The translations under genes were made by a program, and so were the position numbers. DNA of 62,562 nt from an uncultured Pseudomonadota bacterium. Its GTDB lineage: Bacteria > Myxococcota_A > UBA796 > SXON01. The DNA lies in the NCBI GenBank assembly GCA_903921785.1, contig CAIXRH010000292.1, forward strand, positions 1 through 62,562, written 5' to 3'. Below, in pieces: positions 4,985 to 51,126 of the stretch (positions are counted from its first letter, which is position 1; each line of letters opens with the position of its first letter). Under the pieces are notes generated by a model. It worked only from the letters and a program-made list of their open reading frames with translations. It had not been told where the DNA came from and did no database searches.

Positions 4985-6424
4985 ATGTCGCCTCGCTGGA
5001 CCCTCGCCCTGCCGCTCGCGGCCGCCCTCGTCGGGGCGGCCGCGCTGCTCCCCGGGTGTTTCGCGGAGGCGCCGGTCGCGCAGGCGGCCACCAAGCCCAA
5101 CGTGATCCTCATCCTGGTCGACACCTTCCGGGCCGACAAGATCGGCACCTACGGCTACACCAAGCGTAAGACCACCCCCAACCTCGACGCGTTCGCGAGC
5201 GGCGCGATGGTCTGGGACAACGCCTACTCTCAGGACGCGTGGACGGTGCCGAGCGTGGCGAGCCTGTTCACCGGCGTGGACCCCCAGGGGCACTTGTGCC
5301 TCAACTTCCGCCAAGGGGAGAAGCTCGCGACCGACACCATCAGCGACAGCCAGGACACCCTCGCGGAGTCGTTCAAGGCCGGCGGATACACCACCGCGGC
5401 CTTCATCAAGTCCACGGTGATCAGCACGAGCCACGGCTACTCCCAGGGCTTCGACCAGTTCAACATCGTCGGCGGTGCGGACCAGGCGTGGGGGCACTCG
5501 GCGAAGGACCTCAACGACGCTGCGATCCCCTGGCTCACCACGCAGGTGAAGTCCGGCAAGCCGTTCTACGCGTACCTCCACTTCATGGACCCGCACTCTC
5601 CCTACAAGGCGCCGGAGCCCTGGTACAGCAAGTACAAGGGGAGCTACACCGGTCCGATGGACGGCGCCCACGTGCAACTGGAGGACGCGTTCAAGGCCGG
5701 GAAGGTCACCGCAGCCGACTGGGAACGGGAGCTCTCACTCTACGACTCCGAGGTGGAGTACTGGGACACCGAGTTCGGTCGGCTCTGGGGGGAGCTGCAG
5801 AAGGCCGGCGCGGCCAGCAACACGGTCGTGGTGCTCGTGGCCGACCACGGCGAGGCGTTCGGCGAGCACAACAACGTGTTCCACGGCAACCTCTACGGGG
5901 AGAACATCCACATCCCGGTGATGGTGCGGGGGCCCGGCGTGAAGGCGGGCCGGATGAAAGCCTACGGCCAGCTCATCGACGTGCCCCCCACCCTCGCCGA
6001 GATGACCGGCCTTCAGAAGGGCAAGAACTGGCAGGGGAAGAGCATGGTCACCGCGATGGGCGGCGGCGCCGGCCACACCGACGTGATCTACAGCGAGTAC
6101 GCCGGGCAGCGGATGGTGATCGACCCCGCGAGCGGGCTGAAGCTCATCGTGGGCGACGGCGCGACGAAGCTCTTCGACATCAAGGCCGATCCGCTCGAGA
6201 AGACCAACCTCGCGGAGAGCCGGGCGAGCGACGTCACGCGGCTTCGGGCGGCGCTCGACGCCCGCCAGGCCGCCGGGGTGGCCATCGGCAAGGGCGCCGG
6301 CAAGGGCAAGGCCGAGGCGATGTCCGCGGACCAGTGCGAGATGCTCAAGAGCCTCGGCTACCTCGAGCCCGACGCGCCGTGCACCGGCGCGGTGAAGAAC
6401 GACGACGACGGAGACGGCAAGTGA
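4985..6424 (+). CDS. Sulfatase-like alkaline-phosphatase-superfamily lipoprotein with Thr nucleophile
   Basis: A 479-residue protein of the sulfatase / alkaline phosphatase superfamily. It has a signal peptide with a possible lipobox (LLPGC, Cys25), the metal-binding VDTFRAD motif (D46) and VADHGEAFGEH near residues 290-300. Classical sulfatases carry C-x-P-S-R, whose Cys becomes formylglycine. Here the aligned segment is WTVPSVASLFTG, with Thr87 in place of Cys and Val91 in place of Arg. A Thr nucleophile occurs in phosphoethanolamine transferases and other phospho-transfer relatives, so it may act on phosphodiesters rather than sulfate esters. The acidic tail NDDDGDGK is unusual. A GTG-started partner gene overlaps its stop. 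Confidence 0.8.
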   Translation: MSPRWTLALPLAAALVGAAALLPGCFAEAPVAQAATKPNVILILVDTFRADKIGTYGYTKRKTTPNLDAFASGAMVWDNAYSQDAWTVPSVASLFTGVDPQGHLCLNFRQGEKLATDTISDSQDTLAESFKAGGYTTAAFIKSTVISTSHGYSQGFDQFNIVGGADQAWGHSAKDLNDAAIPWLTTQVKSGKPFYAYLHFMDPHSPYKAPEPWYSKYKGSYTGPMDGAHVQLEDAFKAGKVTAADWERELSLYDSEVEYWDTEFGRLWGELQKAGAASNTVVVLVADHGEAFGEHNNVFHGNLYGENIHIPVMVRGPGVKAGRMKAYGQLIDVPPTLAEMTGLQKGKNWQGKSMVTAMGGGAGHTDVIYSEYAGQRMVIDPASGLKLIVGDGATKLFDIKADPLEKTNLAESRASDVTRLRAALDARQAAGVAIGKGAGKGKAEAMSADQCEMLKSLGYLEPDAPCTGAVKNDDDGDGK

Positions 6425-7574: not shown

Positions 7575-8465
7575 GTGCGCGTGCTGCACCTCTCCGACAC
7601 CCACCTCGGCCACGAGGCGTGGTTTCGTGGCGCGCCGAAGGGCTGGCGCCGCGCCGACGATCACCTCGCCGCGATGCGCCGCGTGCTCGCCCCCGCGCTC
7701 GCGGAGGAGGTGGACGTCGTGGTCCACACCGGCGACCTGTTCAACCGCAGCCGCCCGCCCGCGAAGGCGATCGCCGCCGCCGCGGCCGTCCTGGCCGATG
7801 TCGCCCGCGTCGTGCCCACCGTGGTGATGGCCGGGAACCACGATCGGCGCGGGGTTCGCGGGCACTTCCCCGACCCGCCGCCGGGGCTCACGGTCGTCGA
7901 CGCGCCGTGTACGCTGGCGGTGGCCGGGCTTCGCTTCGGCGTGGTGCCGTTCCTCCGTGAGCCGGCGGCGTGGCGCGCGGCGGCGGCCGTGGTGTGCGCC
8001 GCGGGGGTCGATGCGCTCCTCACCCATCAGGCCTTCGACGGGAGCCGGGTGCCGGGGTTCACGTTCCGGCCGTCGCCGGGGAGCGACACGCTGGGGGAGG
8101 CCGACCTCCCGGCGGGCGTGCGAGTGATCCTCAACGGCCACATCCACACCCGTCAGAACCTCCGCCTCGGCGGCGCGGTGGTGCATCACGTCGGCAGCAC
8201 CGAGCGCACCTCCTTCGTGGAGCGCGACGAGCCGAAGGCGGCGTCGGTGTGGGAGCCGGGCGCGGGCGTGCGAACGATCGACGCGGCGCCCCGGCCGATG
8301 GTCGTGGTGCGCGGGGCGGTGGACCTGCCCCTGGTCACCCCGGAGTGCCTGGTGGCGCTCGGGAGGGCCGCGCAGACGGAGGAGCTGGAGGCCGAAGCGC
8401 AGGCGCGTGGGGGGTGGGTGGCGGCGTGGGCCAGGCCCACCCGCCAGGTCGGGTTGTTCGGGTAG
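7575..8465 (+). CDS. SbcD/Mre11-like metallophosphoesterase
   Basis: A 296-residue calcineurin-like phosphoesterase. All metal-site motifs are present: LSDTHLG near the N-terminus, HTGDLFN, MAGNHD, LTHQAF and NGHIHTRQ. The overall order is that of SbcD/Mre11 DNA repair exonucleases, but the protein is shorter than typical SbcD and no SbcC ATPase gene adjoins it. The GTG at 7575 gives a protein beginning directly at the first beta strand. It follows the secreted-protein gene by 14 bases and may be cotranscribed. DNA end processing is plausible, and other phosphodiester substrates cannot be excluded. Confidence 0.8.
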   Translation: MRVLHLSDTHLGHEAWFRGAPKGWRRADDHLAAMRRVLAPALAEEVDVVVHTGDLFNRSRPPAKAIAAAAAVLADVARVVPTVVMAGNHDRRGVRGHFPDPPPGLTVVDAPCTLAVAGLRFGVVPFLREPAAWRAAAAVVCAAGVDALLTHQAFDGSRVPGFTFRPSPGSDTLGEADLPAGVRVILNGHIHTRQNLRLGGAVVHHVGSTERTSFVERDEPKAASVWEPGAGVRTIDAAPRPMVVVRGAVDLPLVTPECLVALGRAAQTEELEAEAQARGGWVAAWARPTRQVGLFG

Positions 8466-8539
8466 GCGGCGCGCCCGGGAGCGGTGACGGTCGTTGCGCC
8501 TGGGGCCATGCCGACCGGGATGAGCCGGGTATGGCGCCC

Positions 8540-9193
8540 CTATTTCCCCCAGTCCATCACGGGCCACCCTCGCTTCTGGGCCAACCGCCTCAGCCGCGGA
8601 TCGGGGTTGACCGCCACCGGCTTGCCCACCGCCTCCAGCATCGGGAGGTCGGACATGGAGTCGGTGTAGAACGTGGCCTCCGCCAGCGCGGCCCCTTGGG
8701 CCTCGGCGAACGCCTGGGCGTGGGTGACCTTCCCCGCGGCGTAGCAGAGCGGGCCCGCCGCCTTGCCGGTGAACACCCCTTCGACCACCTCAAAACGGTT
8801 GCAGAGCGCGTGTTCCAGGCCGAGATGGCGGAGGACTGGCGCGCAGAGGTAGGTGGACGAGGTGGTGAGGAGCGCCACGGTGTCCCCCGCCTCGCGGTGC
8901 CGCTGGATCGTCTCCAGCGCGCCCGGTCGGTACGTGGACGCGATGCGGCGGGTGTAGAACGCCTCCGTTCGCGCGCGCACGTCCTCCTCGCGGGCGCCAG
9001 CGAGGGTGGCGATCGCCTCCTCCACCAGCTTGTCCAGTCGGGTGAAGCCGGCGTGGTACGTGCCGATCCATGCCGCCGCGCGCATCGCCTGCCACCGGGT
9101 GATGAACCCGGCCTCCATCTCCGCGGTGATCCAGAGCTTCGCGGAGTTCACCGAGAGCACGGTGCGGTCGAGGTCGAAGAGAGCGAGCGCCAC
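8540..9193 (-). CDS. HAD-superfamily (IB, SerB-like) phosphatase
   Basis: A 217-residue HAD hydrolase. Motif I is FDLDRTVL at the N-terminus, motif II is LLTTSSTY and motif IV is YTDSMSDLPML. An all-helical cap sits between motifs I and II, the subfamily IB arrangement of phosphoserine phosphatase-like enzymes. It removes phosphate from a small metabolite, but the substrate cannot be read from the sequence. The start is GTG at 9193. The ATG four bases upstream is out of frame. It lies downstream of the MscS-like gene on the same strand and converges on the phosphoesterase gene. Confidence 0.8.
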   Translation of the reverse strand: MALALFDLDRTVLSVNSAKLWITAEMEAGFITRWQAMRAAAWIGTYHAGFTRLDKLVEEAIATLAGAREEDVRARTEAFYTRRIASTYRPGALETIQRHREAGDTVALLTTSSTYLCAPVLRHLGLEHALCNRFEVVEGVFTGKAAGPLCYAAGKVTHAQAFAEAQGAALAEATFYTDSMSDLPMLEAVGKPVAVNPDPRLRRLAQKRGWPVMDWGK

Positions 9194-9241
9194 ATGCCCC
9201 GGTAACCGGCGGCGGGCGCGTCCGCGGTCCGCCGTTGGGCC

Positions 9242-10780
9242 CTACCCGGCGAGGCCGAAGAACTCGCGCATCTTCGCCAGGATCCGAGCGGTCTCCCGGA
9301 GCTGCTCGGCGCCGCGGTCCGCCGCGTTGAGCCCCTCGCGCGCCGCCACCAGGGCGGTCTGCCGCGCTGCGGTGAACGACGCGAGCTCGGCGGCCACGTC
9401 GGCGCGGGCGCGGAGGATGCCCTCGAAGGACTCGCGGTCGAGCTGGAAACAGTCCACCGCGGTGGTGGCCACGATGTTCGCGGAGCGGGGCGCGCCGGTG
9501 AGCAGACCCATCTCGCCGAAGAAGTCGGGGGCGGTCAGCGAGGCGATGGTCTGCTCCCGCCCGTCGGGGCTGGTGAGCGTCACGTCCACCCGGCCGGCGG
9601 CGAGGAGGTACAGGTGGTGGGCCAGGGCGCCCTGGTGGGCGATGATCTCGCCAGAAGCGAACGGCCGGTAGGCCAACTGGGGCGCGAGGTGGTGGCACTC
9701 TTCGTCGGTGAGGGTCCGGAACAGGTCCACCGTGCGGATCACCTGGTAGGCGCGCGCGGTGCGGCGGGCGCGCTGCGCGTCGGCGCCGAGTTGGTCGATC
9801 TCGGCGTTGAACACGGTGTAGGCCGGGAGCGCGAGGGGAATCCCGGCGCGTTGGAGCACCACGTGCACCCGCTCACGGACCTCGGAGTCGGCGCGGGCGT
9901 CGGCCATGAGGTCGAGCAGCCAGTAGCGGGCGGCGAAGGTGGCCGTGCTGTCGCTCGGGTCCTTGCCGAGGTCGGTGCAGACCACGTCGGGCGGCAGGTT
10001 CGGAGCGCAGCCGGGAAGGGGCGAAGACTGAAGGGAATCTTCCACCATCCGGATCACGGTCTCGGGGGCGACGCGGTGGTCGACGCGGAAGTACACCCAT
10101 TGGCGGTGGGGGTGCAGCTGCCCGGCGCGGCGGCCGAGGAGGGTGATCGGGGTGCTCAGGAGGGTGGCGTTGGGGAGTACGATCGCGTCGCCATCGCGGG
10201 TCTCCACCAGGGTGTGGCGCCAGCGGATCGCTGAGACCCTGCCTTGCCGGCCCCCTTCGAGCTGAACCCAGTCGCCGACCTGGATGGAGCCGTCGAGCTG
10301 CAGGGCGAGGCCGCCGATGACGTTTCCCAGGGTGCTCTGGAGCGAGATCGTCAGCGCGGCCGCCACGACCGTGCCCCCTGCGAAGACAGAGGTGGCGTTG
10401 AGGCCAGCGCCGGTGGCGACGACGACCAGCACCGCGCCGTAGCCGAGGGCGCTGAGGAGATCGGCGGCGATGGCCGGCAGGCGGATGCGCGCGCGAGGCA
10501 GCAGCACATCCACGAACAACAGCGAGAACAGGTTCACGACGCAGAAGCCGCCGAGCAGCTTCGCCACGACGTCGATCCACGCGACCGCGACGGCGCCCCC
10601 GAATTCCCGCGCCAGCCCGAGCAGCAGCACCGTGAGGGCGTAGGAGATCCACAGGGTCAGCGGCGTACGGAGGTGAGCACGTTGAAGCGGGCTCACCCGG
10701 TTCACGAGCAGCGCGGTGATCACCAAGAGGGTGCCGACGATCAGGACGGCGAACGCGAGCTCGAGCGGCGTCTGGGGCAC
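9242..10780 (-). CDS. MscS-family channel with C-terminal cyclic-nucleotide-binding domain
   Basis: The protein has 512 residues. Four or so membrane segments occupy residues 8-150. The last, rich in Gly and Ala, leads into the MscS pore helix and beta domain (ISLQSTLGNVIGGLALQLDG, then VGDWV and VLPNATLL). A cNMP-binding domain follows at about 350-465, with the phosphate-binding cassette FGEMGLLTGAPRSA intact, including Glu and Arg. This is the bCNG-type architecture, in which a ligand rather than membrane tension may gate the channel. The GTG start at 10780 is only six bases from a possible -10 box (TAAGCT), so the mRNA may be leaderless. Confidence 0.88.
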   Translation of the reverse strand: MPQTPLELAFAVLIVGTLLVITALLVNRVSPLQRAHLRTPLTLWISYALTVLLLGLAREFGGAVAVAWIDVVAKLLGGFCVVNLFSLLFVDVLLPRARIRLPAIAADLLSALGYGAVLVVVATGAGLNATSVFAGGTVVAAALTISLQSTLGNVIGGLALQLDGSIQVGDWVQLEGGRQGRVSAIRWRHTLVETRDGDAIVLPNATLLSTPITLLGRRAGQLHPHRQWVYFRVDHRVAPETVIRMVEDSLQSSPLPGCAPNLPPDVVCTDLGKDPSDSTATFAARYWLLDLMADARADSEVRERVHVVLQRAGIPLALPAYTVFNAEIDQLGADAQRARRTARAYQVIRTVDLFRTLTDEECHHLAPQLAYRPFASGEIIAHQGALAHHLYLLAAGRVDVTLTSPDGREQTIASLTAPDFFGEMGLLTGAPRSANIVATTAVDCFQLDRESFEGILRARADVAAELASFTAARQTALVAAREGLNAADRGAEQLRETARILAKMREFFGLAG

Positions 10781-10799
10781 GGACGGAGCTTAGCGCGCT

Positions 10800-12122
10800 T
10801 CAGCGCACCCGGCTGACCCCGGGAAGGTCCGGCACGCGCACGACGTAGGGGATGACGGACGCGAATTCCGTCTCCAGCTGCCAGCGGATCTCTCCGTTCG
10901 GGTCGAGATCGACCACGACCCCGGAGGAGGAGAAGACCGCGAGGGTGCTGCCGTCCGCGGCGCGGTCGACATCGCCGAGGGTGATCACCTGCAGATGATC
11001 GGGGTGGTGCCACTCCCACGTCGGCGTGGCGGTGCCCGCCGCATCGTCGAGGGTGTACTGCATCAGCCGGCTCTCCTCCGCGGTCTTCGGGTCCCGGTCA
11101 TCGAAGACCAGAAGTTCGTCGCCGAAGAACTCGAACTGGTGCTGGAACTTGGTGGCGTCGGCGGGGTCGGCGATCGCCCAGGTCGGCTCCGTGCCCCCGA
11201 ACTGTGCGCCCTGGGTGCCATCGGGGAAAACCTGGACGATCTGGCTGAGCTCGCGGAGGCCGAGCCAATAGGATTGCCGGTCGGGGTCCCAGTCGATGGC
11301 GTTGGCGTGGGTCCAGACCTGCTGCTCCATGTCCGCGTCCACGGGGGGCGTCGCGTGGTCCCAGATCGACCAGATCGGCTCCCCGGGACCGTCCGCGGTC
11401 ACGGGCTCGATCGCGTCGCCAAGCACGTCCAGCTCGCCGCGCCCCTGCCGGATGTCGAGGACGATGCACATCGCATCGCCCTCGGGCGTGTCCACGAAGT
11501 CGTGGGTGAACCCGGGAATCTCCACTCGGGAGAGCTCCTCGCCCGACCAGCTCACGGTCACGAGCGCGGAGGTCTCGGGCTCGGGTACGGTCTCGATCTC
11601 GGCGTAGCGGAGGCCGCTCCGGTCGGGCAAAAGGCGCACCCGGAGGATGCGGTGGCCCTTCCGACCCTGGTGGTACCACACCACCCGCCCCAGCTCGTCG
11701 AAGATGACCAGCGTGCTGGCCTCGGTGTCTCCCCCGACGATGGCGGTGAGGACGAACCCTTCCCAGCCCGGCTCTCCGTCGATCGTCCAGCGGGGGAGGC
11801 TGGCCGGGATGTCCCCGGTCGCGAACGTGACGTAGGGGCTCGCGTCGCCGTCTTCGACCACCAGACGGGCCTGGTACGTCGTGTCCGCGAAGAGCCCGAG
11901 CAGGCCGACCTCGTGGCTGGCGGCGCCCTCCTGCCAGTCGGTGGTCAACCACGGGCCGTCGTCGTTGGTGACCTCGATGCGGGTGCGGCTGTCGGTGGCG
12001 AAGGTCCAGCTCGCGGTGGCGAAGGTGGTGATGTCCTCGCTCACGGTGATCTTGGGCTCGGGGACCCCACAAGCGACCAGCGCGAGCAGCCCTGCGCCCC
12101 CGATGGCGAGCCTAGGTGTCAT
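10800..12122 (-). CDS. Arylsulfotransferase-like beta-propeller lipoprotein (copy 1)
   Basis: A 440-residue lipoprotein with a signal peptide ending in the lipobox LVAC, a fibronectin-like N-terminal domain and a propeller. Repeats typical of the bacterial arylsulfotransferase family are visible, including LVIFDELGRVVWYHQG, THDFVDTPEGD, THANAIDWDP and QHQFEFFGDELLVFDD. The His residues of THDF, THAN and QHQF sit where the catalytic His of such sulfotransferases would be expected, but activity is unproven. The ATG at 12122, inside the end of the radical SAM gene (11-base overlap), gives the better signal peptide. An upstream start at 12140 is possible. A paralogue lies on the other side of the radical SAM gene. 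Confidence 0.75.
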   Translation of the reverse strand: MTPRLAIGGAGLLALVACGVPEPKITVSEDITTFATASWTFATDSRTRIEVTNDDGPWLTTDWQEGAASHEVGLLGLFADTTYQARLVVEDGDASPYVTFATGDIPASLPRWTIDGEPGWEGFVLTAIVGGDTEASTLVIFDELGRVVWYHQGRKGHRILRVRLLPDRSGLRYAEIETVPEPETSALVTVSWSGEELSRVEIPGFTHDFVDTPEGDAMCIVLDIRQGRGELDVLGDAIEPVTADGPGEPIWSIWDHATPPVDADMEQQVWTHANAIDWDPDRQSYWLGLRELSQIVQVFPDGTQGAQFGGTEPTWAIADPADATKFQHQFEFFGDELLVFDDRDPKTAEESRLMQYTLDDAAGTATPTWEWHHPDHLQVITLGDVDRAADGSTLAVFSSSGVVVDLDPNGEIRWQLETEFASVIPYVVRVPDLPGVSRVR

Positions 12123-13644
12123 ACCAGTCCGGCTGGACAAGCTGTTGGTAGTGCTCGACGTCGAGCGGGTTGATGCGCTTGCGGATCGCGTCCACCGCCA
12201 TCGCCGCCGAGACCTTCGCGAACCAGATGTACATGTCGCGCTTGTAGGGTACCCGGCTGGTGAGCCCGCGCAACATCCAGCGCTTGTTCACGAACTGCTT
12301 GTTCATGTCGTAGAGCGCCTGCCCGATCTCGTCCTTGGTCATGTACTTGCTGTCGAGGACGGGGCTGAGCCAGTCGAAGTTGTCGAAGTCGTCCTCGGTG
12401 ATCCAGCCTTCGCGCAGCGCTTCGTCGAAGATCGGGGTGCCCGGCACCGGGGTGATCGGGTGGAACGCGGGGAAGTCCACGTCGAGCTGCTTGGCCATCT
12501 CCACCTGCTTCTTCAGCGAGGCGTGGTTCTCTTCTTTCACGCCGACGATGAACGTGGCCTGCACGAAGACCTGCGGATACTTCCGCTTGAAGATCTCCAG
12601 GGCCTCCGCGGCGATCCCGCCGGTGTAGAAGCGTTTGTCGAGCGAAGAGAGCGAGTCGTCCTCCGCGCGCTCCACCCCGATGAGGATGTGGGCGAGGCCG
12701 GCGCGCACCAGCTTCTCCAGGATCCCCTTCTTCTCGTCGCGCACGATGCAGTCGGCGCGCATGAAGGCGAACCACTGCGTCTTCATGCCGCTCTTGATCA
12801 TCCGCTCGGCGAACTCGTCGTTGAAGCGGGCGTCGATGTTCCAGGACTCGTCGACCCACACGTAGGAGCGCTTGCCATAGCGGTGGTAGAGCTCCTCGAT
12901 CTCCTCCATCACCCGGTCGACCGACTTGCTCCGCCACCGGGGCGAGAGCTGCACGTTGCCGTCCTTGTCGTACTTGCGGTCGGCCATGACGGTCCACCAG
13001 GCGCAGAAGCTGCACGAGGAGACGCAGCCGCGGCTGTGGTGGATCGTCGTGCCGCCCGGGGAGAAGAGGTAGCGGCTCTTCCCGTAGAGGTGCATCGGGA
13101 GCATGTCGTACGCGGGCATCGGCAGGGTGTCGAGGTCGCGGATGAGCTTCCGGGTGTTCGTCCGCGCGGCCTTCTCGCCGTCCCAGTACATGAGCCCGTC
13201 GACCTTGGTGAGGTCGGCGTCCTTGTGGGCCCAGGCTTCGCACGCCTCGACGATGGTCTCCTCGCCCTCGCCGATGCAGATCGCGTCGATGTTCGAGGTG
13301 GGGTTGGCGTAGCGGTGGGCGAGGTTGGTGAAGTGCCCGCCGCCGGCGAGGGTCTTCGCGCGCGGGGCCACGTCCTTGCACAGCTGGAAGAACCGCAGCG
13401 CCTCGCTGGCGTACAGGGCGTGGTTCTCCCCGCAGGCGATCACGTCGGGGTCGAGCTCCTTGATCCGATCGGCCAGCGACCGCCAGCCCACGTGGAGCGG
13501 CATGCAGTCGAGGACATGCACGTCCATCCCGGCGTCGCGCAGGGGGGCGGCGAGCGCGGGGAGCGCTTGTTGAAGGAGGAAGTTGTCGCCCTCACTGGTG
13601 TAGGGCCAGTACTTCCGCGGCGGCTGAACGAGGAGTACGCGCAT
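12112..13644 (-). CDS. B12-binding-type radical SAM enzyme
   Basis: The protein has 510 residues. The N-terminal 150 residues have the Rossmann-like cobalamin-binding fold pattern (MRVLLVQPPRK and GGGHFTNLAH), without a clear DxHxxG cobalt ligand, as in BchE-type class B enzymes. The radical SAM cluster motif SRGCVSSCSFC has Cys207, Cys211 and Cys214 in CxxxCxxC spacing. The later GVERAEDDSL and FIVGVKEE segments are typical of this superfamily. Products of the family include methylated or cyclised unactivated carbons, and the substrate here is unknown. It lies between two arylsulfotransferase-like lipoprotein genes and downstream of a methyltransferase. A TAAGGT box lies eight bases before its ATG. 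Confidence 0.87.
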   Translation of the reverse strand: MRVLLVQPPRKYWPYTSEGDNFLLQQALPALAAPLRDAGMDVHVLDCMPLHVGWRSLADRIKELDPDVIACGENHALYASEALRFFQLCKDVAPRAKTLAGGGHFTNLAHRYANPTSNIDAICIGEGEETIVEACEAWAHKDADLTKVDGLMYWDGEKAARTNTRKLIRDLDTLPMPAYDMLPMHLYGKSRYLFSPGGTTIHHSRGCVSSCSFCAWWTVMADRKYDKDGNVQLSPRWRSKSVDRVMEEIEELYHRYGKRSYVWVDESWNIDARFNDEFAERMIKSGMKTQWFAFMRADCIVRDEKKGILEKLVRAGLAHILIGVERAEDDSLSSLDKRFYTGGIAAEALEIFKRKYPQVFVQATFIVGVKEENHASLKKQVEMAKQLDVDFPAFHPITPVPGTPIFDEALREGWITEDDFDNFDWLSPVLDSKYMTKDEIGQALYDMNKQFVNKRWMLRGLTSRVPYKRDMYIWFAKVSAAMAVDAIRKRINPLDVEHYQQLVQPDWYDT

Positions 13645-13732
13645 CGGGCGCGACCTTAGCCGAGCGCGCGCGGCGTCGCGCGGCGGATCGGAGCGTTCGG
13701 TAACGCCGGGCCCGCGCCGGCGGGTCCGCGAT

Positions 13733-15067
13733 TCATGGGAACGCCGGGGTGCTTCCCGGAAGCGCGGGAACTAACGCCGAGTACCCGAAGACGCGCCCGA
13801 GATCGAGGGTGAGCGCCCAGGGGCTCGACCCATCCAGATGGCGTTCGTCGAGCAGGCCGCTGGTGGACCAGTTCGCGAGGAGGGTGTCGTCGTCGACCCA
13901 GGTGGCGTCGCCGAGGACGTAGTCGAACAGCGCGGGATCGGGGAGGAACTCCCAAGCTTCTTGGACCGTGCCGCCTTCCCGATCGAGGTCGTACACCGCG
14001 ATGCGGGTGCCGTCCGCGGCGCTGCGGTTGTCGTGCAGGGCGACGCGGTTGCCCCGCACGTCGAAGCCGTGCTGCTCGTGGAACAGCTCACCCTCGCCGA
14101 TGAAGACGAGATCGGAGCGTTCGCTGCCGATGATGTGGACCGGCGCCCAGCTTTCCCCGTCAAGCTCGACCAGGGTGCTCAGCCCGCGGAGCCCCACGAA
14201 CGCGGTGCCGCTGTCGGCCGACCACCGGAGGGTGTTCGCGTGGGTCCACGTCGTGGGGTCGGCGAGGTCCGCGGCGGGGCTGAACGAATCCCAGGCGGAC
14301 CATAGTTTTTCCTCCCCGGCGCCGTCCACCGCCATGCGGAACACCGCATCGCCGACCACGGCGGTACCGTCGACCGTGCGCGTGTCGGTGCCGAGGAAGA
14401 GGAGGGTGTCGTCCGGGCGGGCGATGAAGTCGTGGGTGAGCCCTTCACCCGCGTTGCCGGCGGGGGTGAGATCGGCGAGCAGGCTGCCGTCCCAGGCGTA
14501 GGAGACGAGGCGGCCCGGAGCCTGGCCCACCTCGCCGCTCCACAGGAGCGCCCACATGCCCAGGCCGTCCGCGCGGGGGAGCACGCGGAGGATCGGCGCG
14601 CCGGGGATCTCCATGTTCCAGACGGCGCGGCCGTTCGGGGCGAGGAGCAGCGCCACGGAGATGCCCGGTTCGACGAGCGCGGTGGCGAGGTACCCGGTCC
14701 AGGTGGCGGCGCCCTCGGGGTGGAGCGCGCCGAGGGCGTCGACGCCGGCGCCGGTGGTCACCGCCTCGGTGGTGAGCACGTGGCCCGCCTCGTCGACGAG
14801 GGTGGCGGTGAACGTGTCGCCCGCCCAGAGACCGAGCACGGGGAGCGCGGTGGCCTCCGCCCCGTCCTGCCAGTCGGTGACCAGGACCGGGCCGTCCGGG
14901 GACGCGAGCTCCAGTCGGGTGCGGGTGTCGGCGTCCGACGTCCACGTCGCCTCGACGTAGCTGGGCATCTCGGCGCCGACGGCGAGGCTCAGCGTGCCGC
15001 TCGGCGCGTCGACGCTGGCGTCAGGCGCGCAGGCGGCGAGGAGCAGAACGGAGCCGACGGAGAACAC
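13733..15067 (-). CDS. Arylsulfotransferase-like beta-propeller lipoprotein (copy 2)
   Basis: A 444-residue paralogue of the 10800-12122 protein. It has the same order of features: lipobox LLAAC, a Trp-rich N-terminal beta domain with VTDWQDGAEA (compare TTDWQEGAAS in copy 1), THDFIARPDD, THANTLRWSAD and a late His-rich propeller blade with EQHGFDV and VALHDNRS. The GTG at 15067, eight bases after the methyltransferase stop, gives a very short signal peptide without positive charge. The start is therefore less secure than the rest. It is probably an outer-membrane or periplasmic propeller protein, and enzyme activity is inferred only from family resemblance. Confidence 0.7.
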   Translation of the reverse strand: MFSVGSVLLLAACAPDASVDAPSGTLSLAVGAEMPSYVEATWTSDADTRTRLELASPDGPVLVTDWQDGAEATALPVLGLWAGDTFTATLVDEAGHVLTTEAVTTGAGVDALGALHPEGAATWTGYLATALVEPGISVALLLAPNGRAVWNMEIPGAPILRVLPRADGLGMWALLWSGEVGQAPGRLVSYAWDGSLLADLTPAGNAGEGLTHDFIARPDDTLLFLGTDTRTVDGTAVVGDAVFRMAVDGAGEEKLWSAWDSFSPAADLADPTTWTHANTLRWSADSGTAFVGLRGLSTLVELDGESWAPVHIIGSERSDLVFIGEGELFHEQHGFDVRGNRVALHDNRSAADGTRIAVYDLDREGGTVQEAWEFLPDPALFDYVLGDATWVDDDTLLANWSTSGLLDERHLDGSSPWALTLDLGRVFGYSALVPALPGSTPAFP

Positions 15068-15075
15068 GGGCCCCG

Positions 15076-15780
15076 TTACCGCGCGACGACGATCCACGCG
15101 CGGTTCAGCGGCGCGAAAACGGGGTGCGTGGCCAGCTCGTCCTCGCGGGCGAAGAGCGCCTCGCGGGTGAGCTCGCCCGCGACCTGCTGGAGCGGGCCGC
15201 CCAGGGTGTAGTGGCTCGGGACGAGGCGCTCGATCGTCCAGCCAGCGAGCAGCTCGCGTAAGGACTCGGCGGTGAAGGTGCGGACGAAGCGGTCCCCGGG
15301 GACGTGCACGACCCCATCGCCGAGGAGGGCGGGGAGCTGGCCTTCGGGGGCGTCCACCGCGAGGGCCCAGCCGTAGCGGGCTTCGACGGAGAGCAGCAGC
15401 GGCGCGCCGGGGCGGAGATGGGCGCGCACGGCGCGCAGGGCCGCCGTGGGGTCGTTCACGTAGCAGAGCAGCTCCGCGGCGATCACGGCATCCGCGACGG
15501 GCAGGTCGGGGAGCGCTTCCACGGGGGCGACGTGCGCAAACAGGCGCCCCGCCCGGCCTTCCGCGTGCGCCACGGCGCGCGCCACGGACTCCGGGTCGGG
15601 GTCCACGAGGTGCACCGCGCACCCCCGGTCGAGGCACCAGGTCGCAAAACGGCCGACGCCGCCCCCGACGTCGAGGACGACGCTGCCGGGCGGAACGTGC
15701 TCCGCCCAGTGACGCAGGTACAGCTCACGCTCCAGGAGCTTGGCCTGGTGCGCGGGGCTCTCGGGGCTCAGGAAGTCCAT
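15076..15780 (-). CDS. Class I SAM-dependent methyltransferase
   Basis: A 234-residue methyltransferase core. Motif I is VLDVGGGVGRFATW (about 35-48), an acidic VDPDPE end of beta 2 follows, and AVIAAELLCYVNDP is the motif IV region. The substrate domain is small, as in Methyltransf_11/12-type enzymes. The ATG at 15780 is the first in frame, but no clear Shine-Dalgarno precedes it. The frame stays open upstream through the tandem repeat, where it would read Glu-Ala-Arg-Pro-Gln-Gly-Val-Ala-Pro. A well-placed ATG with SD at 15974 lies in another frame, so the true N-terminus is uncertain. It leads a same-strand cluster with the arylsulfotransferase-like and radical SAM genes. Confidence 0.75.
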   Translation of the reverse strand: MDFLSPESPAHQAKLLERELYLRHWAEHVPPGSVVLDVGGGVGRFATWCLDRGCAVHLVDPDPESVARAVAHAEGRAGRLFAHVAPVEALPDLPVADAVIAAELLCYVNDPTAALRAVRAHLRPGAPLLLSVEARYGWALAVDAPEGQLPALLGDGVVHVPGDRFVRTFTAESLRELLAGWTIERLVPSHYTLGGPLQQVAGELTREALFAREDELATHPVFAPLNRAWIVVAR

Positions 15781-15848
15781 CCACTCGGGGACGGACGCCC
15801 AGGCCGTTCGGGCGCCGACGAGGTTCGCCGACGCCCGTTGCTCGGAGC

Positions 15849-15974
15849 TCAGGCCTTGGGGCCGGGCTTCGGGCGGGGGGACGGGCGCCACGCCTTGGGG
15901 CCGGGCTTCGGGCGGGGGGACGGGCGCCACGCCTTGGGGCCGGGCTTCGGACGGGGGGAAGGACGCCAGTTCAT
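15849..15974 (-). CDS. Small basic proline-rich ORF (41 residues) upstream of the methyltransferase
   Basis: The ATG at 15974 is preceded by GGAGAG at good spacing. It opens a 41-residue reading frame made of three 13-residue units, Ala/Asn-Trp-Arg-Pro-Ser-Pro-Arg-Pro-Lys-Pro-Gly-Pro-Lys, ending in TGA at 15849. It has ten Arg/Lys and no acidic residue. It could be a leader peptide, a small basic protein, or the true start of the methyltransferase if a -1 frameshift (or a sequence error in the six-C runs) joins the frames. It is too short and repetitive for a family assignment. Confidence 0.4.
   Translation of the reverse strand: MNWRPSPRPKPGPKAWRPSPRPKPGPKAWRPSPRPKPGPKA
15854..15968 (-). 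repeat. Three tandem 39-bp repeats
   Basis: Units run 15854-15892, 15893-15931 and 15932-15968. The first two are identical and the third differs at a few positions and is slightly truncated. Because 39 is a multiple of 3, copy-number change would keep the frame of either overlapping reading. Confidence 0.9.
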
Positions 15975-16000
15975 GGGCTCTCCGTAACGTTGGGAAGGGG

Positions 16001-16032
16001 TGTATCGTCGCCCGAAGCGGGCCGGGTGTCAA
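16001..16032 (-). promoter_or_regulatory. Candidate promoter for the methyltransferase cluster
   Basis: A perfect -35 TTGACA (16032-16027) faces the cluster. The best -10 is GATACA (16006-16001) at a long 20-base spacing, with CGATAC or ACGATA as alternatives at 19 or 18. It lies in the divergent gap shared with the TRAP operon. Confidence 0.4.
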
Positions 16033-16060
16033 GCGAAAGCCGTCCGGGCGCGGGATGCGG

Positions 16061-16066
16061 TACACT
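16061..16066 (+). promoter_or_regulatory. Candidate -10 element of the TRAP operon
   Basis: TACACT is 20 bases before the TTG start at 16087 and fits the TANNNT pattern seen before other genes here. No good -35 is seen at 16-18 bases. Confidence 0.3.
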
Positions 16067-16086
16067 CCGCACGCCCCGGAGTGCTC

Positions 16087-16881
16087 TTGATCGACCTGCT
16101 CGAGCGTGTCGACGCGTGGATGTATCGCCAGGAACAGCGCGTCGTCGCCAGCATGCTGGCGGTGATGGGCCTCGTGGTCTTCCTCGACGTCGTGTACCGG
16201 GCGACCTGCCTCGCCGACAGCCCGCTGGTGCCCGACTTCCTGGAGCACGCGCTCGGCACCTGGGCCACGCCGGTGTGGGCGGGTTCGGTGGGCGGGCTCA
16301 TCGCCTGGCTCGCGTTCCGCACCCGCGGCGACGCGCAGCCGCTCGGGAAGGCGGCGATCGCGTCGGCGGCGCAGGCGGCGGCTGCCTGGGCGTACCCACT
16401 GCTCCTCCCGAACGGGCTCATCTGGTCGCAGACGCTCGCGCTCGCCCTCACCCTCTGGCTCGGCATGGCGGGCGCGGCGCTCGCCGCGCACCAACGGCGC
16501 CACCTCGCGCTCGACGTGGGCAGCAAGCTCTGGCCGGAGAAGCTCGCGCCGAAGATCGCGGCGATCGGCCACTTCGTCACCGCGGCCTTCTGCCTGCTCC
16601 TGCTCGTCCTCGGCTGGCGCTCCCTCTTCGGCTCCGGCAGCGGCGACGCCCGGATCCCCGGGCACTTCGACACCTGGGTGGACTCCGACCACGCCGCCGG
16701 CACGATGACCGGCACCATCATCCCCAAGTGGATCGTGATGGCGTCCATCCCCTTCGGCTCGATCGTCCTCGCCTTCCGGTTCACGCTGGAGGGGATGCGG
16801 GTGTGGACCGGGCGGGAGAAGCCGGGCGACGGCGACGACACCCTTCACCAGCTTGGCCTCGACGAAGAGGTGGCCTCGTGA
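16087..16881 (+). CDS. TRAP transporter small permease (DctQ-type)
   Basis: A 264-residue membrane protein with four main hydrophobic segments in the DctQ arrangement: a short cytoplasmic start, helix 1 (ASMLAVMGLVVFLDVVYR), a periplasmic stretch, two central helices including HQRRHLALDV (the conserved region after helix 2), and a last helix before a charged tail. At 264 residues it is longer than the usual 160-200, with an inserted hydrophobic segment near 75-105. TTG at 16087 has GGAG five bases upstream; GTG at 16081 is the alternative. The stop overlaps the large-permease start (GTGA). It partners the DctM-type subunit in sodium- or proton-driven uptake. Confidence 0.8.
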   Translation: MIDLLERVDAWMYRQEQRVVASMLAVMGLVVFLDVVYRATCLADSPLVPDFLEHALGTWATPVWAGSVGGLIAWLAFRTRGDAQPLGKAAIASAAQAAAAWAYPLLLPNGLIWSQTLALALTLWLGMAGAALAAHQRRHLALDVGSKLWPEKLAPKIAAIGHFVTAAFCLLLLVLGWRSLFGSGSGDARIPGHFDTWVDSDHAAGTMTGTIIPKWIVMASIPFGSIVLAFRFTLEGMRVWTGREKPGDGDDTLHQLGLDEEVAS

Positions 16882-18518
16882 GCGGCCTCCTCCTCTGCCT
16901 CGCGATCGTGGTGCTGGCGCTGCTCGGGAGCCGCCTCTTCGTGGTGGTCGGCGTCGCCACGGCGATGTGTTTCATGCTGTGGGTGGACGGCTCCGGCTCG
17001 GTGCTCGACCAGCTCGGCCGAATCGTGACCAAGATGGAGTCGCTGACCACCAAGAACGTGTTCCTCTCGATCCCGTTCTTCATCGCGGCCGGCAACATCA
17101 TGACCAAGGGCGGCATCGCGCGCCGCCTCACCGACCTCGCCCGAGCGCTCGTGGGCTGGCTCCCCGGTGGCCTCGCGGTGGCGAGCATCGTGGCCTGCAT
17201 CGTGTTCGCCGCCATCTCCGGGTCTTCCCCGGTCACGCTGGTGGCGGTGGGCGCGGTGATGTTCCCCGCCCTCCTGGACTCCGGCTACCCCAAGCGCTTC
17301 TCCATCGGGCTCATCACCTCGGCGGGCTCGCTCGGCTGCATGATCCCGCCTGCCATCTCCATGCTGGTCTACGCGATCAGCGTGCAGGGCTCCGCGGCGG
17401 TAGACCCGTCCAACCTGTTCTTCGCCGGCCTGGTGCCCGCGCTGTTCATCGCGGGGCTCCTCGCGATCTACGCGGTGTGGGTGGGGATGAAGGTGCCCGG
17501 CTCCCGGCAGCCGTTCGACGCGGCGTTCTTGTGGGCGAGCCTCAAGGGGGCGGGCTGGGCGCTCACCCTGCCGGTCATCGTGCTCGGAGGAATCTACGGT
17601 GGCGTGTTCACGCCGACCGAGGCGGGCGCGGTGGCGTTCGCGGCCGCGGTGCTCATCAGCACGCTCGTTCATCGCGACGTCCCGTTCGCGAAGCTCCCGG
17701 CGATCCTCGTGGAGTCTTCCACGCTGATGGGGAGCCTCATCCTCATCGTGATCCTCGCGTTCGGGCTCAACGACTTCCTCGCCGAGGTGGACGCGCCGGG
17801 GGTCATCCGCGGCTGGGTGGAGGCGGCGGACCTCAGCGCCTGGCAATTCATGCTCGTCACCAACCTCATCCTCATCGTGCTCGGCGCGCTGATGGACAGC
17901 ATCTCCGCGACGCTGGTTTTCGCGCCCATCCTCGCGCCGGTGGCGATCAACCACTACGGGATCGACCCGATCCACTTCGGCATCGTGTTCGTGGTGAACA
18001 TGGAGATCGGCTACCTCGCGCCGCCGGTGGCTACGAACCTCTTCGTGGCGGCGGCGATCTTCCGTCAGCCGTTCGTGGAGGTGGCCAAGGCGATCATGCC
18101 CACGCTGGCGATCATCTGCGGGGCGCTGGTGGTGCTGATGTACGTGCCGGGGCTGTCGCTCGGCCCGTTGGCGTTGCGTGACGGCGGCGATCCGTGGCCG
18201 GCGTTCCCGTGGCACGGAAAGGCCGCGGAGGTGGCGCCGGTGGAGCCCGGCGGGGAGCCTGCCGCCGGGAGCGGGGAGCCCGATCCCGGTCGCCCGCTGA
18301 CCATGGAGGAGATGATGAAGAAGGCCAAGGAGCGGGCTGCCAATCCGGGGACGGACGCCGCGCCCGCGGACGGGGCGCCCGATGGCGCTGCGAACCCTGC
18401 CGCCGCGCCGACCGACGCCGCGCCCACCCGCCCGCTCACCATGGAGGAGATGATGAAGAAGGCCAAGGAGAAGGTGGAGGCCGACAAGGCGACGGCTCCG
18501 GCCGCTGGCGGGCAGTAG
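16878..18518 (+). CDS. TRAP transporter large permease (DctM-type) with duplicated C-terminal helix
   Basis: A 546-residue transporter. Residues 1-440 form the usual 12 or so membrane segments of DctM, with family signatures such as SIPFFIAAGNIMTKGGIARR, GSLGCMIPPAISM, GVFTPTEAGAV and NMEIGYLAPPVATNLF. It imports an organic acid or similar solute handed over by a periplasmic DctP protein, but no dctP gene is in the window. Unlike normal DctM, it has a 100-residue hydrophilic Ala/Pro/Gly-rich tail. The tail carries RPLTMEEMMKKAKE twice (472-485 and 518-531), encoded by identical 33-base DNA repeats. The tail's role is unknown. Confidence 0.87.
   Translation: MSGLLLCLAIVVLALLGSRLFVVVGVATAMCFMLWVDGSGSVLDQLGRIVTKMESLTTKNVFLSIPFFIAAGNIMTKGGIARRLTDLARALVGWLPGGLAVASIVACIVFAAISGSSPVTLVAVGAVMFPALLDSGYPKRFSIGLITSAGSLGCMIPPAISMLVYAISVQGSAAVDPSNLFFAGLVPALFIAGLLAIYAVWVGMKVPGSRQPFDAAFLWASLKGAGWALTLPVIVLGGIYGGVFTPTEAGAVAFAAAVLISTLVHRDVPFAKLPAILVESSTLMGSLILIVILAFGLNDFLAEVDAPGVIRGWVEAADLSAWQFMLVTNLILIVLGALMDSISATLVFAPILAPVAINHYGIDPIHFGIVFVVNMEIGYLAPPVATNLFVAAAIFRQPFVEVAKAIMPTLAIICGALVVLMYVPGLSLGPLALRDGGDPWPAFPWHGKAAEVAPVEPGGEPAAGSGEPDPGRPLTMEEMMKKAKERAANPGTDAAPADGAPDGAANPAAAPTDAAPTRPLTMEEMMKKAKEKVEADKATAPAAGGQ
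18300..18470 (+). repeat. Direct 33-bp repeats within the TRAP permease tail
   Basis: Positions 18300-18332 and 18438-18470 are identical over 33 bases, 105 bases apart, and encode the duplicated TMEEMMKKAKE helix. Confidence 0.9.

Positions 18519-43368: not shown

Positions 43369-43390
<22 letters not shown>
42824..43390 (+). CDS. nuoE: NADH-quinone oxidoreductase subunit E
   Basis: A 188-residue thioredoxin-fold subunit with the 2Fe-2S cluster N1a. The four ligands appear as CHTLSC and CLASC, and VASFYTMFKKAPTNRY is typical. The last 22 bases overlap nuoF in another frame, an unusually long overlap in an operon that otherwise uses 1-10 bases. Confidence 0.95.
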
Positions 43391-44648
<1,258 letters not shown>

Positions 44649-44649
<1 letters not shown>

Positions 44650-46205
44650 TGCCGAAGGTCAAGGTCAACGACGTCGAGGTCGAGGTCCCGGCCGGGGCCA
44701 ACATGATCGAGGCCGCGAAGCTCGCGGGCGTCGAGATTCCCCACTACTGCTACCACCCGAACCTCAGCGTGGCGGGCAACTGCCGCATGTGCATGTGCGA
44801 GACGGAGACCCCCCGTGGGCCCGTCCTCGAGATCGCGTGCAACATGCAGGCGCGGGAGGGGCTGGTGATCCGCACCGACACCGACAAGGTGAAGGCGGTC
44901 CGCACGTCGGTGATGGAGTTCCTGCTGGTGAACCATCCGCTGGACTGCCCCATCTGCGACCAGTCGGGCGAATGTCGGCTCCAGGACTACTACATGGAGC
45001 ACGGCGCCTACGACAGCCGTGGCAATGAGCCCAAGGTGGGCAAGCACAAGCGCCAGGACATCGGTGAGCACATCGTGCTCGACGCGGAGCGGTGTGTGGA
45101 GTGCAGCCGTTGCGTCCGCTTCGGGGACGAGGTCACCAAGACCGGTGATCTCCGCCTGATGAACCGCGGCAATCACACCGAGATCGGGCTGTTCCCGGGC
45201 GCTCGCCTGGAGCACGACTACCAGGGCAACCTCGCGGACATCTGCCCCGTCGGTGCGCTCACCAACAAGGACTTCCGGTTCCAGCGCCGCGTCTGGTACC
45301 TCCGCGAGACGGAGAGCATCTGCACGGGCTGCGCGACCGGCTGCAACACCCGGGTCTGCCATCAGGAAGGCCAGGTGTTCCGCTACCTCCCTCGCCGCAA
45401 CGACGACGTGAACAAGAGCTGGATGTGCGATCCGGGCCGCGGCGGCCACGAGGTCATCTCCAGCCTGTCTCGCATCCTCCGCCCCCGGGTGGAAGGAAAG
45501 TCCGTCGACAACGCCACCGCCGAGCTCGCCAAGCGCATCCGTGCGGCGGGCAACGGCAAGGTGGGCTTCGTCCTCGGCACCCGTGCATCGCTGGAAGCGA
45601 ACTGGGCGCTCTTGCAGATGGTCAAGGCCAACTGCGCCGACGCCAAGGTCTTCTGGGTCTCGGGCGCGGACCAGGGCGCCATCGCCAAGGCCGACAACTT
45701 CCTGATGGACGCGGACAAGAACCCCAACACCGCGGGCGTGAAGATGCTCGCGGCGTGGGCCGGCAATGTTGGGGACGCCGCGGCGCTCCAGTCGGCGGAC
45801 CTCGGGCTGCTTGTCGTGCTCGAAGACGATGTCGTCACCCGCATGGGCGGCGCGATCACCGCCCCGATCGCGTACTTCGGCTGGGAGGAGAACCCGACGG
45901 CGGCGAAGGCCGCGGTGGTCATCCCGGTCGCGCACACCGTGGAGATGGACGCGACCTACGTGAACCGGCAGGGCCGGGTACAGCGCGCACGCCGCGCCAC
46001 CAACCCGCTCGGCGAGTCGGTGCCCGCCTACCAGGCGCTCGACAAGCTTGGCGCCGCCCTCGGGCGCGCCCCCGGCACGATGATGCCGGTCGCGACGTTC
46101 CTCGCGATGGCCCGCGCCGTCCCGCGCATGGCCGGCATGGACTACAAGGGCCTCGGCATGAGCGGCAAGGTGCTCGCGCCCGAAGCCGTGGCGGAGGCCA
46201 AATGA
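44649..46205 (+). CDS. nuoG: NADH-quinone oxidoreductase subunit G (short form)
   Basis: A 518-residue iron-sulfur subunit. The N-terminal 2Fe-2S ligands are in YCYHP, GNCRMCMCE and IACNM. DCPICDQSGECRLQD carries N5/N4-type ligands, and RCVECSRCVRF and ICPVGALT follow. A further site, CTGCATGC with MCDPGRGG, corresponds to the N7-type cluster next to the molybdopterin-oxidoreductase-like domain. It is much shorter than the E. coli subunit (about 900 residues), because the C-terminal domain is reduced. Confidence 0.95.
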
Positions 46206-47638
46206 GCGAATTCTGGGACAGCTGGGGCGGCTGGATCGTCGTCCTGTTGCGCTGCGTGTTCTCCGTGGCGTTCGTCATGCAGATCGTGCCGGTGCTCATC
46301 TGGGGTGAGCGGAAGGGCGCGGCCTACGTCCAGGACCGTCCGGGTCCCAACCGGGCCCCGGTCGACATCCCCAACCCGCTCGACATCCCGCGCCTGCTCG
46401 GCGACGTGCTCGCGGGCCGTCCCCTGAAGTACAAGCCGGTGGTCTCGCTGCGCGCGGCGGGCCTCGTCCACACGCTCAACGACGTGGTGAAGCTCGCCTT
46501 CAAGGAGGACATCACCCCGAATCACGTCGAGAAGTTCTACTGGACGATCGCGCCGGTCATCGCGATGACCATCGCCCTCTGCACCTTCTCGGTGGTTCCG
46601 TTCGGCGACACGCTGCTCGGCTACAAGCTGCAGGTCAGCGACATGGACGGCGGCCTGCTGTTCGTGCTCGCGATGACGTCCCTGGGCGTCTACGGGATCA
46701 TGCTCGCAGGCTGGGCGTCGAACAACAAGTTCTCGCTGCTCGGCGGCCTCCGCTCCAGCGCCCAGATGGTCAGCTACGAGCTGGCGATGGGTCTCTCCGC
46801 GGTGGTGGTCTTCCTCCAGGCCGGCTCGGTGTCGCTCTCCGACATCGCCGCCATGCAGGCCCAGCCGCTCGACATCCTCGGCGTCGTGCAGATCCCGGCC
46901 CTCAACTGGACGGTGTTCTCTCCCTTCGGCTTCCTGGCCTTCGTGCTCTTCTTCGTGAGCGCGTTCGCCGAGACCAACCGCACGCCGTTCGACCTGCCGG
47001 AAGGCGAGGCTGAGCTCGTCGGCGGGTACCATACCGAGTACTCGAGCTTCCGTTTCGCGCTGTTCTTCATGGCCGAATACGCGAACATGGTGGTGGCCTC
47101 CTCGGTAACGGCCACGCTGTTCTTCGGCGGGTACGACGTGCCCTTCCTCAGCGGCGAGACCATCCGCGCCAACGCGGACCTCATCCTCGGCGTGCTCGGC
47201 GTCGCGGGGATCCCGGCGTTCCTCACCTTCGCGGTGATCGCCTGGAAGCGGCAGGGCCGTCCGTTCTACGCGGCCATCCCCAAGGACGATCCTCGGCAGA
47301 ACGAGCCGAAGTTCTTCACGGCGGTGTGGCTCGGCGCCGCCGGCGCCCACGCCGCGCTCGCCGCGGTCGGGTTCATGGGCGGGCTCACGGCCCTCTCCAC
47401 CTGGGCGGAGATGCCGGCCCTTGGCGGCGACCTGCTGGCCCTGGTGCTGCACGTCACCTGTCTCATCGTGAAAGTGCTCATGTTCTGCTGGGTCTTCATC
47501 TGGGTCCGGTGGACGCTCCCGCGCTTCCGCTACGACCAGCTGATGAACCTCGGTTGGCGGTACATGCTGCCCACCGCGTTGGTCAACGTGTTCCTTGCCG
47601 CGGGGTGGATCATCGTCCGCCACGAACTCTTCGCCTAG
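46202..47638 (+). CDS. nuoH: NADH-quinone oxidoreductase subunit H
   Basis: A 478-residue membrane subunit at the quinone-tunnel entrance. WGERKGAAYVQDRPGPNRA and FFVSAFAETNRTPFDLPEGE, followed by ELVGGYHTEYSS, are the hallmark cytoplasmic loops. It is longer than most NuoH proteins (about 320-430), with extra sequence around residues 60-105 and an added C-terminal membrane region. ATGA overlap with nuoG. Confidence 0.95.
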   Translation: MSEFWDSWGGWIVVLLRCVFSVAFVMQIVPVLIWGERKGAAYVQDRPGPNRAPVDIPNPLDIPRLLGDVLAGRPLKYKPVVSLRAAGLVHTLNDVVKLAFKEDITPNHVEKFYWTIAPVIAMTIALCTFSVVPFGDTLLGYKLQVSDMDGGLLFVLAMTSLGVYGIMLAGWASNNKFSLLGGLRSSAQMVSYELAMGLSAVVVFLQAGSVSLSDIAAMQAQPLDILGVVQIPALNWTVFSPFGFLAFVLFFVSAFAETNRTPFDLPEGEAELVGGYHTEYSSFRFALFFMAEYANMVVASSVTATLFFGGYDVPFLSGETIRANADLILGVLGVAGIPAFLTFAVIAWKRQGRPFYAAIPKDDPRQNEPKFFTAVWLGAAGAHAALAAVGFMGGLTALSTWAEMPALGGDLLALVLHVTCLIVKVLMFCWVFIWVRWTLPRFRYDQLMNLGWRYMLPTALVNVFLAAGWIIVRHELFA

Positions 47639-47650
47639 GAGATCGGTCGA

Positions 47651-48217: not shown

Positions 48218-48256
48218 CCGGCCCCGAATGACCTCCCCACCCGAAGGACGTCCACG

Positions 48257-51122: not shown

Positions 51123-51126
51123 GCTG

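Follow-up and report, generated by a model that had tools for sequence, protein, structure and literature searches.

A conserved proline-rich micropeptide gene beside a methyltransferase and a B12-fold radical SAM enzyme in an order of Myxococcota

Short peptides encoded beside modifying enzymes

The PqqA/PqqE and mycofactocin systems each combine a short peptide with a radical S-adenosylmethionine (SAM) enzyme. A leader-recognition domain (RRE) is common, although not universal, in systems that make ribosomally synthesized and post-translationally modified peptides (RiPPs). Short peptides of another kind are the proline-rich antimicrobial peptides Bac7, drosocin and oncocin of insects and mammals, and repeats are present in Bac7. 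Genes encoding only 15 residues are below the size that gene callers usually report. Such a gene, absent from the gene list of the original prediction made for this DNA, is the subject of the present analysis. It belongs to a gene run in a 62,562-nucleotide stretch, called the window below, of contig CAIXRH010000292.1 from an uncultured bacterium (GTDB lineage Myxococcota_A; UBA796; SXON01). The overlooked open reading frame (ORF), MNWRPSPRPKPGPKA, encodes a proline-rich micropeptide of 15 residues and is situated just upstream of a methyltransferase gene. In the window's genus the micropeptide is tripled into 13-residue repeats.

The micropeptide is similar to the peptides of the PqqA/PqqE and mycofactocin systems in being very short, precursor-like and adjacent to modifying enzymes. 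It differs from them in its length of only 15 residues, in being linked foremost to a methyltransferase, and in having no RRE or PqqD domain among the window proteins scanned. Its likeness to Bac7, drosocin and oncocin lies in its shortness, its richness in Arg-Pro and Lys-Pro, and its repeats; unlike these peptides it is bacterial, and no signal peptide was seen. As far as literature and family searches go, the micropeptide family and its linkage appear to be undescribed, and the enzymes come from known superfamilies. In the literature searched, no paper was found that contains PRPKPGPK or describes such a proline-rich or RiPP peptide. Literature searches on arylsulfotransferases (ASSTs) in myxobacteria and Myxococcota and on uncharacterised cobalamin radical SAM families likewise yielded nothing of use.

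The locus can be described as composite. A micropeptide/methyltransferase/radical SAM unit extends across the order, genes for ASSTs and an MscS-type channel are additions at the level of a genus, and the enzymes would modify the micropeptide or its product; we give this description about an even chance of being correct. The order-wide unit consists of the micropeptide gene (with the core WRPSPRPKPGPK), the methyltransferase gene directly beside it and, usually next, the radical SAM gene. A second radical SAM enzyme, encoded elsewhere, is inherited together with this one, and a HAD phosphatase gene often follows in the window's family. In the window's genus, genes for members of a large family of exported ASST lipoproteins and for a channel with MscS and cyclic nucleotide monophosphate (cNMP)-binding domains have come to lie between the genes of the unit. 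What makes the locus significant is a 15-residue, apparently coding gene that a whole order of Myxococcota has kept with hardly any change. Because it is linked genetically to a methyltransferase and phyletically to a pair of radical SAM enzymes, it can be put to a direct biochemical test.

Distribution and position of the micropeptide

All genome counts refer to a sample of 282 genomes from the phylum. The strict DNA pattern that represents WRPxPRPxPGPK was matched in 28 of them, all from the window's order and at a single place in each (one array in the tripled forms). The reversed pattern, which served as the control, had no match in the 282 genomes. The micropeptide lies upstream of a methyltransferase match, on the same contig and within 176 nt, in 27 of the 28 genomes; in the 28th it is found at a contig end. 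The gap between the two is 82-176 nt outside the window's genus, and within the genus it ranges from an overlap to 48 nt. Diverged micropeptides were found by their position in four genomes (G136, G198, G236 and G274). When strict and relaxed variants are combined, the micropeptide is present in 32 of the 33 assessable genomes of the order that carry the radical SAM gene. There are 34 such genomes in total, and one of them (G122) was excluded from the peptide count because its contig ends. No micropeptide was found at any of the nine methyltransferase loci of family f2, which does not have the radical SAM gene, or at the three methyltransferase loci of family f36.

The methyltransferase gene, METHYLTRANSFERASE, is present in 51 of the 282 genomes, 42 of which also contain the radical SAM gene. 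The two genes are less than 3.5 kb apart in 34 of these 42 genomes and on separate contigs in the other eight. The association between methyltransferase and radical SAM enzyme that had been proposed for the window thus extends well beyond this genome. The gene context upstream of the pair depends on the lineage, being RuvAB-LpxC, FtsE-EnvC or neither, and the methyltransferase and radical SAM genes have therefore moved together. The pair is not obligate, however, and this idea was dropped: nine genomes, all from f2, contain the methyltransferase gene without the radical SAM gene.

The micropeptide has no match in Pfam or PHROGs, its region has none in Rfam, and a scan of viral contigs for it returned nothing. 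A single chance match, to TonB, was found in NCBIfam (E 0.42) and a single one in the Protein Data Bank (PDB; E 1.2).

Coding and selection

Forty-six distinct 12-codon units were collected by regular expression; some came from loci that had been retrieved for a different purpose and some from pattern matches. Compared pairwise, they differ 88, 90 and 4957 times at codon positions 1, 2 and 3, respectively, a contrast that is partly built in, since the pattern fixes most residues. The residues that the DNA pattern leaves free provide a fairer test. Position 4 is Ser in 46 of 46 units, encoded by three different codons, and position 8 is Lys in 44 of 46. Repeat units within single genomes were compared 33 times and differ at 137 third positions and at two other positions. 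Most of these units are therefore not fresh slippage copies, although two of the three units in the window are identical. A ribosome-binding sequence of the GGAG type precedes the ATG in most versions. Judging from this codon pattern, the micropeptide is a translated sequence under selection.

Slippage can create 39-nt tandem repeats, and the repeat might then be a DNA or RNA element, such as a variable-number tandem repeat, a leader or a structured RNA, rather than a peptide gene. This is very improbable. Third-position changes dominate both between species and among the units of one genome, the GGAG-type sequence is appropriate for translation, and the Rfam match that a structured RNA might give is absent. 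The orientation also varies among lineages: the micropeptide is on the same strand as the methyltransferase in 18 genomes and on the opposite strand in nine (all six pattern matches in family f3 are on the methyltransferase strand). This variation indicates an independent gene and not a leader, and a leader-peptide role was accordingly dropped.

Proposed function of the micropeptide unit

In the proposed mechanism, the methyltransferase and the radical SAM pair would modify the micropeptide or a product that the micropeptide helps to make. The three repeats in the window's genus would then yield three equal cores per translation. Support for this proposal, which is held with low confidence, comes mainly from the order itself, where the peptide accompanies the radical SAM gene and not the methyltransferase alone. 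Furthermore, a conserved precursor-like gene lies beside candidate modifying enzymes on one contig in 27 of the 28 pattern genomes, an arrangement by which RiPP loci are recognized. Two roles are conceivable for the micropeptide: a substrate of a minimal, RiPP-like kind, or a binding peptide that stays unmodified. A more specific form of the proposal is rather unlikely. In it, a new ribosomal peptide natural product or cofactor would derive from the WRP micropeptide, a 15-residue precursor without a leader, whose core is tripled in the window's genus; the neighboring methyltransferase would methylate it, and the pair of B12-fold radical SAM enzymes would modify it at a C-H position, perhaps on the only Trp. 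If modified, the micropeptide would count among the shortest known peptide substrates of radical SAM enzymes.

Several observations weigh against the proposal that the enzymes modify the micropeptide. The evidence tying them to it consists of linkage and co-occurrence. The main weakness is family f7, in which the methyltransferase and the radical SAM enzyme are both present but no recognizable peptide is found at any of five loci. Both enzymes are likewise present in genome G193, where no micropeptide was found, and nine f2 genomes contain the methyltransferase without either the peptide or the radical SAM gene. In five of the 32 peptide genomes (G024, G068, G170, G203 and G269) the radical SAM gene is on a different contig, although the micropeptide still adjoins the methyltransferase. 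The Pfam matches obtained for six window proteins include no RRE or PqqD leader-recognition domain. The built-in part of the codon-position contrast and the shared descent of the genomes in which the two radical SAM genes co-occur (see below) must be counted here as well.

The strongest competing explanation is that the peptide, basic and rich in proline, is left unmodified and acts in trans. It would bind the ribosome or another partner and regulate translation or envelope assembly, and the methyltransferase would be a stable old neighbor. The type of sequence (Trp, Arg-Pro and Lys-Pro within 15 residues, tripled in one genus) is consistent with such a role, as are the position of the gene between LpxC and the methyltransferase in several lineages and the missing RRE domain in the six scanned proteins. 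An unmodified peptide does not explain, however, why the micropeptide tracks the radical SAM gene in the order (32 of 33 genomes) and not the methyltransferase alone (none of nine in f2). It is a serious possibility, which we nevertheless hold to be wrong more readily than right. If it is correct, the micropeptide would be a bacterial proline-rich micropeptide with a binding partner.

The radical SAM enzyme and its partner

Orthologs of the radical SAM enzyme occur in all 19 genomes of the window's family and in none of the 15 of the sister family f2. The protein matches the Pfam B12-binding domain (PF02310) with 50.4 bits (cut-off 32.1) and Radical_SAM with 44.6 bits. Identity among 32 aligned rows is 49-91%, and Cys207, Cys211 and Cys214 of the CX3CX2C motif are invariant in all of them. 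No classical DxHxxG motif was seen by eye. The predicted structure has a mean predicted local distance difference test (pLDDT) value of 85.8. It is matched best by AprD4 (Z 29.8), followed by CysS, MgmA, OxsB and TsrM (Z 26-28), in each case over both domains. AprD4 is not known to bind cobalamin. The enzyme shares the complete two-domain architecture and the CX3CX2C cluster motif with AprD4, CysS, OxsB, TsrM, MgmA and BchE, but it is only about 16-19% identical to the solved ones and forms a family of its own.

The best NCBIfam match of the enzyme is TIGR02026 (BchE) at 183.3 bits, which could be taken to mean that it is BchE or a hopanoid enzyme (HpnJ or HpnR). This assignment is extremely improbable. 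All such matches are far under the curated cut-offs (481.35 bits for TIGR02026; 481, 578 and 650 bits in the set). Of the 50 genomes that encode the radical SAM enzyme, only four also encode squalene-hopene cyclase, and the 19 genomes of the window's family have none. A search of the window's genome for the BchB C-terminal domain was negative. Chemistry directed at hopanoids or bacteriochlorophyll is therefore unlikely, and candidate roles in photosynthesis and in hopanoid or sterol chemistry were dropped on the same grounds. Tes/MSS, the membrane-spanning-lipid synthase, is absent from the PDB profile matches of the enzyme (E 0.01) and from its fold lists, which excludes nothing.

The enzyme is accompanied by another member of its superfamily, the second radical SAM enzyme. 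Both are encoded in 47 genomes, the first alone in three, the second alone in one and neither in 231. The resulting phi over the 282 genomes is 0.95, a statistic that ignores shared descent. In much of the window's family the two genes map near each other and near enolase; in several distant families they adjoin. In the window's genome the second gene is on another contig (C69), beside enolase.

In distant families (loci L070 and L072-L075) the ortholog of the first radical SAM enzyme is one of three to five B12-fold radical SAM genes arranged in a row or facing each other, and these multi-radical-SAM clusters are a candidate pathway. A chorismatase-like gene is near the cluster at L072; a link to chorismate was considered and dropped, as PF21168 occurs in eight of the 282 genomes and only two of these (G064 and G185) carry the radical SAM gene. 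Several of the genomes that encode the ortholog also contain a paralogous family with 37-40% identity (L079-L083), which has no methyltransferase or peptide match nearby. Close relatives of the window's radical SAM gene, with 79-87% identity, come from contigs filed as Klebsiella pneumoniae or Bifidobacterium breve (L014, L017, L018 and L033), and these records look like mislabelled metagenome bins.

The arylsulfotransferase-like lipoproteins

The two β-propellers that flank the radical SAM gene had been described as paralogous, exported and arylsulfotransferase-like, which agrees with the present data. They are 31% identical to each other (5e-49), and their lipobox-like ends, LLAAC in ASST-1 and LALVAC in ASST-2, were recognized by eye. 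ASST-2 matches the Pfam family Arylsulfotrans (PF05935) with 47.5 bits, above the cut-off of 24.2, and ASST-1 reaches only 20.5 bits. A structure model was made of ASST-2 alone (pLDDT 88.9), and fold matches concern this protein only. The best match is Cpz4 (9kf6; Z 34.8, root-mean-square deviation (rmsd) 2.9, 333 aligned residues). Escherichia coli AssT (3ets) follows with Z 25.5 and rmsd 3.5 over 402 aligned residues, and other propellers give Z values of at most 21.5.

His207, His272, Asn274, Arg290 and His328 of ASST-2 do not vary among the 14 aligned members, one of which is ASST-1. The conserved catalytic His and Arg residues that had been proposed as a check are thus present in both propellers. 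The first four residues align with His252, His356, Asn358 and Arg374 of AssT, whose active-site residues have catalytic roles that are treated in a review (PMC13426309). His328 aligns with a histidine of Cpz4, whereas the stretch of AssT around His436, the sulfated residue, is outside that alignment. The window ASSTs have in common with Cpz4 and AssT the propeller fold (as modelled for ASST-2), the His/His/Asn/Arg active-site residues and an export signal, and the fifth active-site residue, a His, aligns with one in Cpz4. They differ from them in being 17-20% identical, in being predicted lipoproteins and in belonging to a large paralogous family in each genome.

Judged by these residues, both propellers look catalytically competent as exported sulfotransferases. 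ASSTs would transfer the sulfuryl group independently of 3'-phosphoadenosine 5'-phosphosulfate (PAPS), via a sulfo-histidine that would be His328 in ASST-2. Their site of action would be periplasmic or at the outer membrane, and they would not depend on the cytoplasmic unit. We infer with moderate confidence that they are exported sulfotransferases acting on their own.

The original prediction had combined the methyltransferase, the radical SAM enzyme and the two lipoprotein sulfotransferases into one system that makes and sulfates a single exported compound. The tight packing of the genes on one strand, with an 8-base gap and an 11-base overlap, fits this proposal. In addition, an ASST gene directly follows the radical SAM gene in eight of nine genomes of the same genus, and one is located between the methyltransferase and radical SAM genes in three of the nine (L032, whose contig begins inside the radical SAM gene, was excluded from the count for the ASST-1 slot). 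The association stops at the genus, however. No ASST was found in the available sequence around the radical SAM gene at the 19 other loci of the first set or at the 15 distant ortholog loci. Outside the genus, all 34 homologs of the radical SAM enzyme thus lack the propellers as neighbors, the outcome that the original prediction had named as refuting it, as far as the propellers are concerned. The slot that precedes the radical SAM gene contains a ThrE-type exporter in L006 and a PilZ protein in L009. In G184 (L103) ASST-2 has kept MscS, HAD and the second radical SAM gene as neighbors, on a contig other than that of the first radical SAM gene.

The window's genome contains 15 ASST-family loci, and relatives of ASST-2 number 8-18 per genome in the nine genomes of the same genus. 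A tree of 36 ASSTs, from which L084 was left out for want of an alignable ASST, shows that ASST-1 and ASST-2 are not sisters. ASST-2 groups with the ASST-2 of neighboring species and with an unlinked paralog of its own genome (G000:C81). ASST-1 groups with the copy of L010 and with an unlinked paralog of that species (G189:C27). The slots are thus filled by different ASST clades in different species. The proposed duplication around the radical SAM gene was not a local event, and local duplication was rejected, as the closest relatives of both copies include unlinked paralogs. Twelve unlinked ASST loci were examined, and queries for radical SAM, methyltransferase, HAD and MscS genes had no match at any of them. 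A single compound made and sulfated by all four proteins is quite improbable, and a conserved ASST and radical SAM system was rejected. What stands of the earlier interpretation is the sulfotransferase-like character of the propellers and the linkage of methyltransferase and radical SAM enzyme; the inclusion of the propellers in one functional unit does not. The apparent four-gene system is explained by propellers that belong to a large expanded family. The ASST genes are local additions in one genus and most likely passengers.

Gene arrangement in the window

Table 1. Features of the gene run in the window
Feature	Position	Strand	Remarks
Micropeptide ORF, 41 codons	15849..15974	-	MN, three exact 13-residue repeats WRPSPRPKPGPKA and a stop
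Class I SAM-dependent methyltransferase	15076..15850 (ATG at 15780)	-	Pfam Methyltransf_23, 62 bits; homology to 15882
ASST-1, arylsulfotransferase-like β-propeller lipoprotein, GTG start	13733..15067	-	Genus-specific insert
B12-fold radical SAM enzyme, BchE/AprD4-like	12112..13644	-	Orthologs in 50 of 282 genomes
ASST-2, arylsulfotransferase-type lipoprotein	10800..12122	-	Assigned by Pfam, residues and fold; genus-specific
MscS-type channel with cyclic-nucleotide-binding domain	9242..10780	-	PF00027, 84.5 bits; PF00924, 45.7 bits; genus-specific neighbor
HAD-IB phosphatase	8540..9193	-	TIGR01490, 145.9 bits (cut-off 98.3)

The four genes named earlier are all present, on the minus strand (Table 1), and their close packing is real. 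ASST-1 starts 8 bases past the methyltransferase stop, and the first 11 bases of ASST-2 are shared with the end of the radical SAM gene. The run extends past 10800 into the MscS/cNMP gene and then the HAD phosphatase gene, which are on the same strand and closely spaced. A sequence match carries the homology of the methyltransferase beyond its annotated ATG, and its start is therefore probably upstream of 15780, near 15850, at or overlapping the micropeptide stop. A consensus scan of positions 8000-16300 found no promoter (0 promoter-like sites) or terminator on the minus strand and a single terminator-like site on the plus strand, compared with a mean of 1.7 in shuffled sequences.

Of 29 loci, 15 have a HAD phosphatase gene close to the radical SAM gene, and in the window's family it is the conserved third gene after the latter. 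About 2 kb beyond the HAD gene is a sulfatase gene (4985-6424, plus strand; PF00884, 157 bits), in a genome with 15 sulfotransferase-like loci. On the other side of the run, TRAP transporter genes (DctQ) occupy positions 15990-18518 of the plus strand, and the larger ORF ends in repeated RPLTMEEMMKKAKE segments. Farther away, complex I (nuo) genes at 43369-54155 of the plus strand encode NuoF- and NuoG-like proteins and three antiporter-like subunits.

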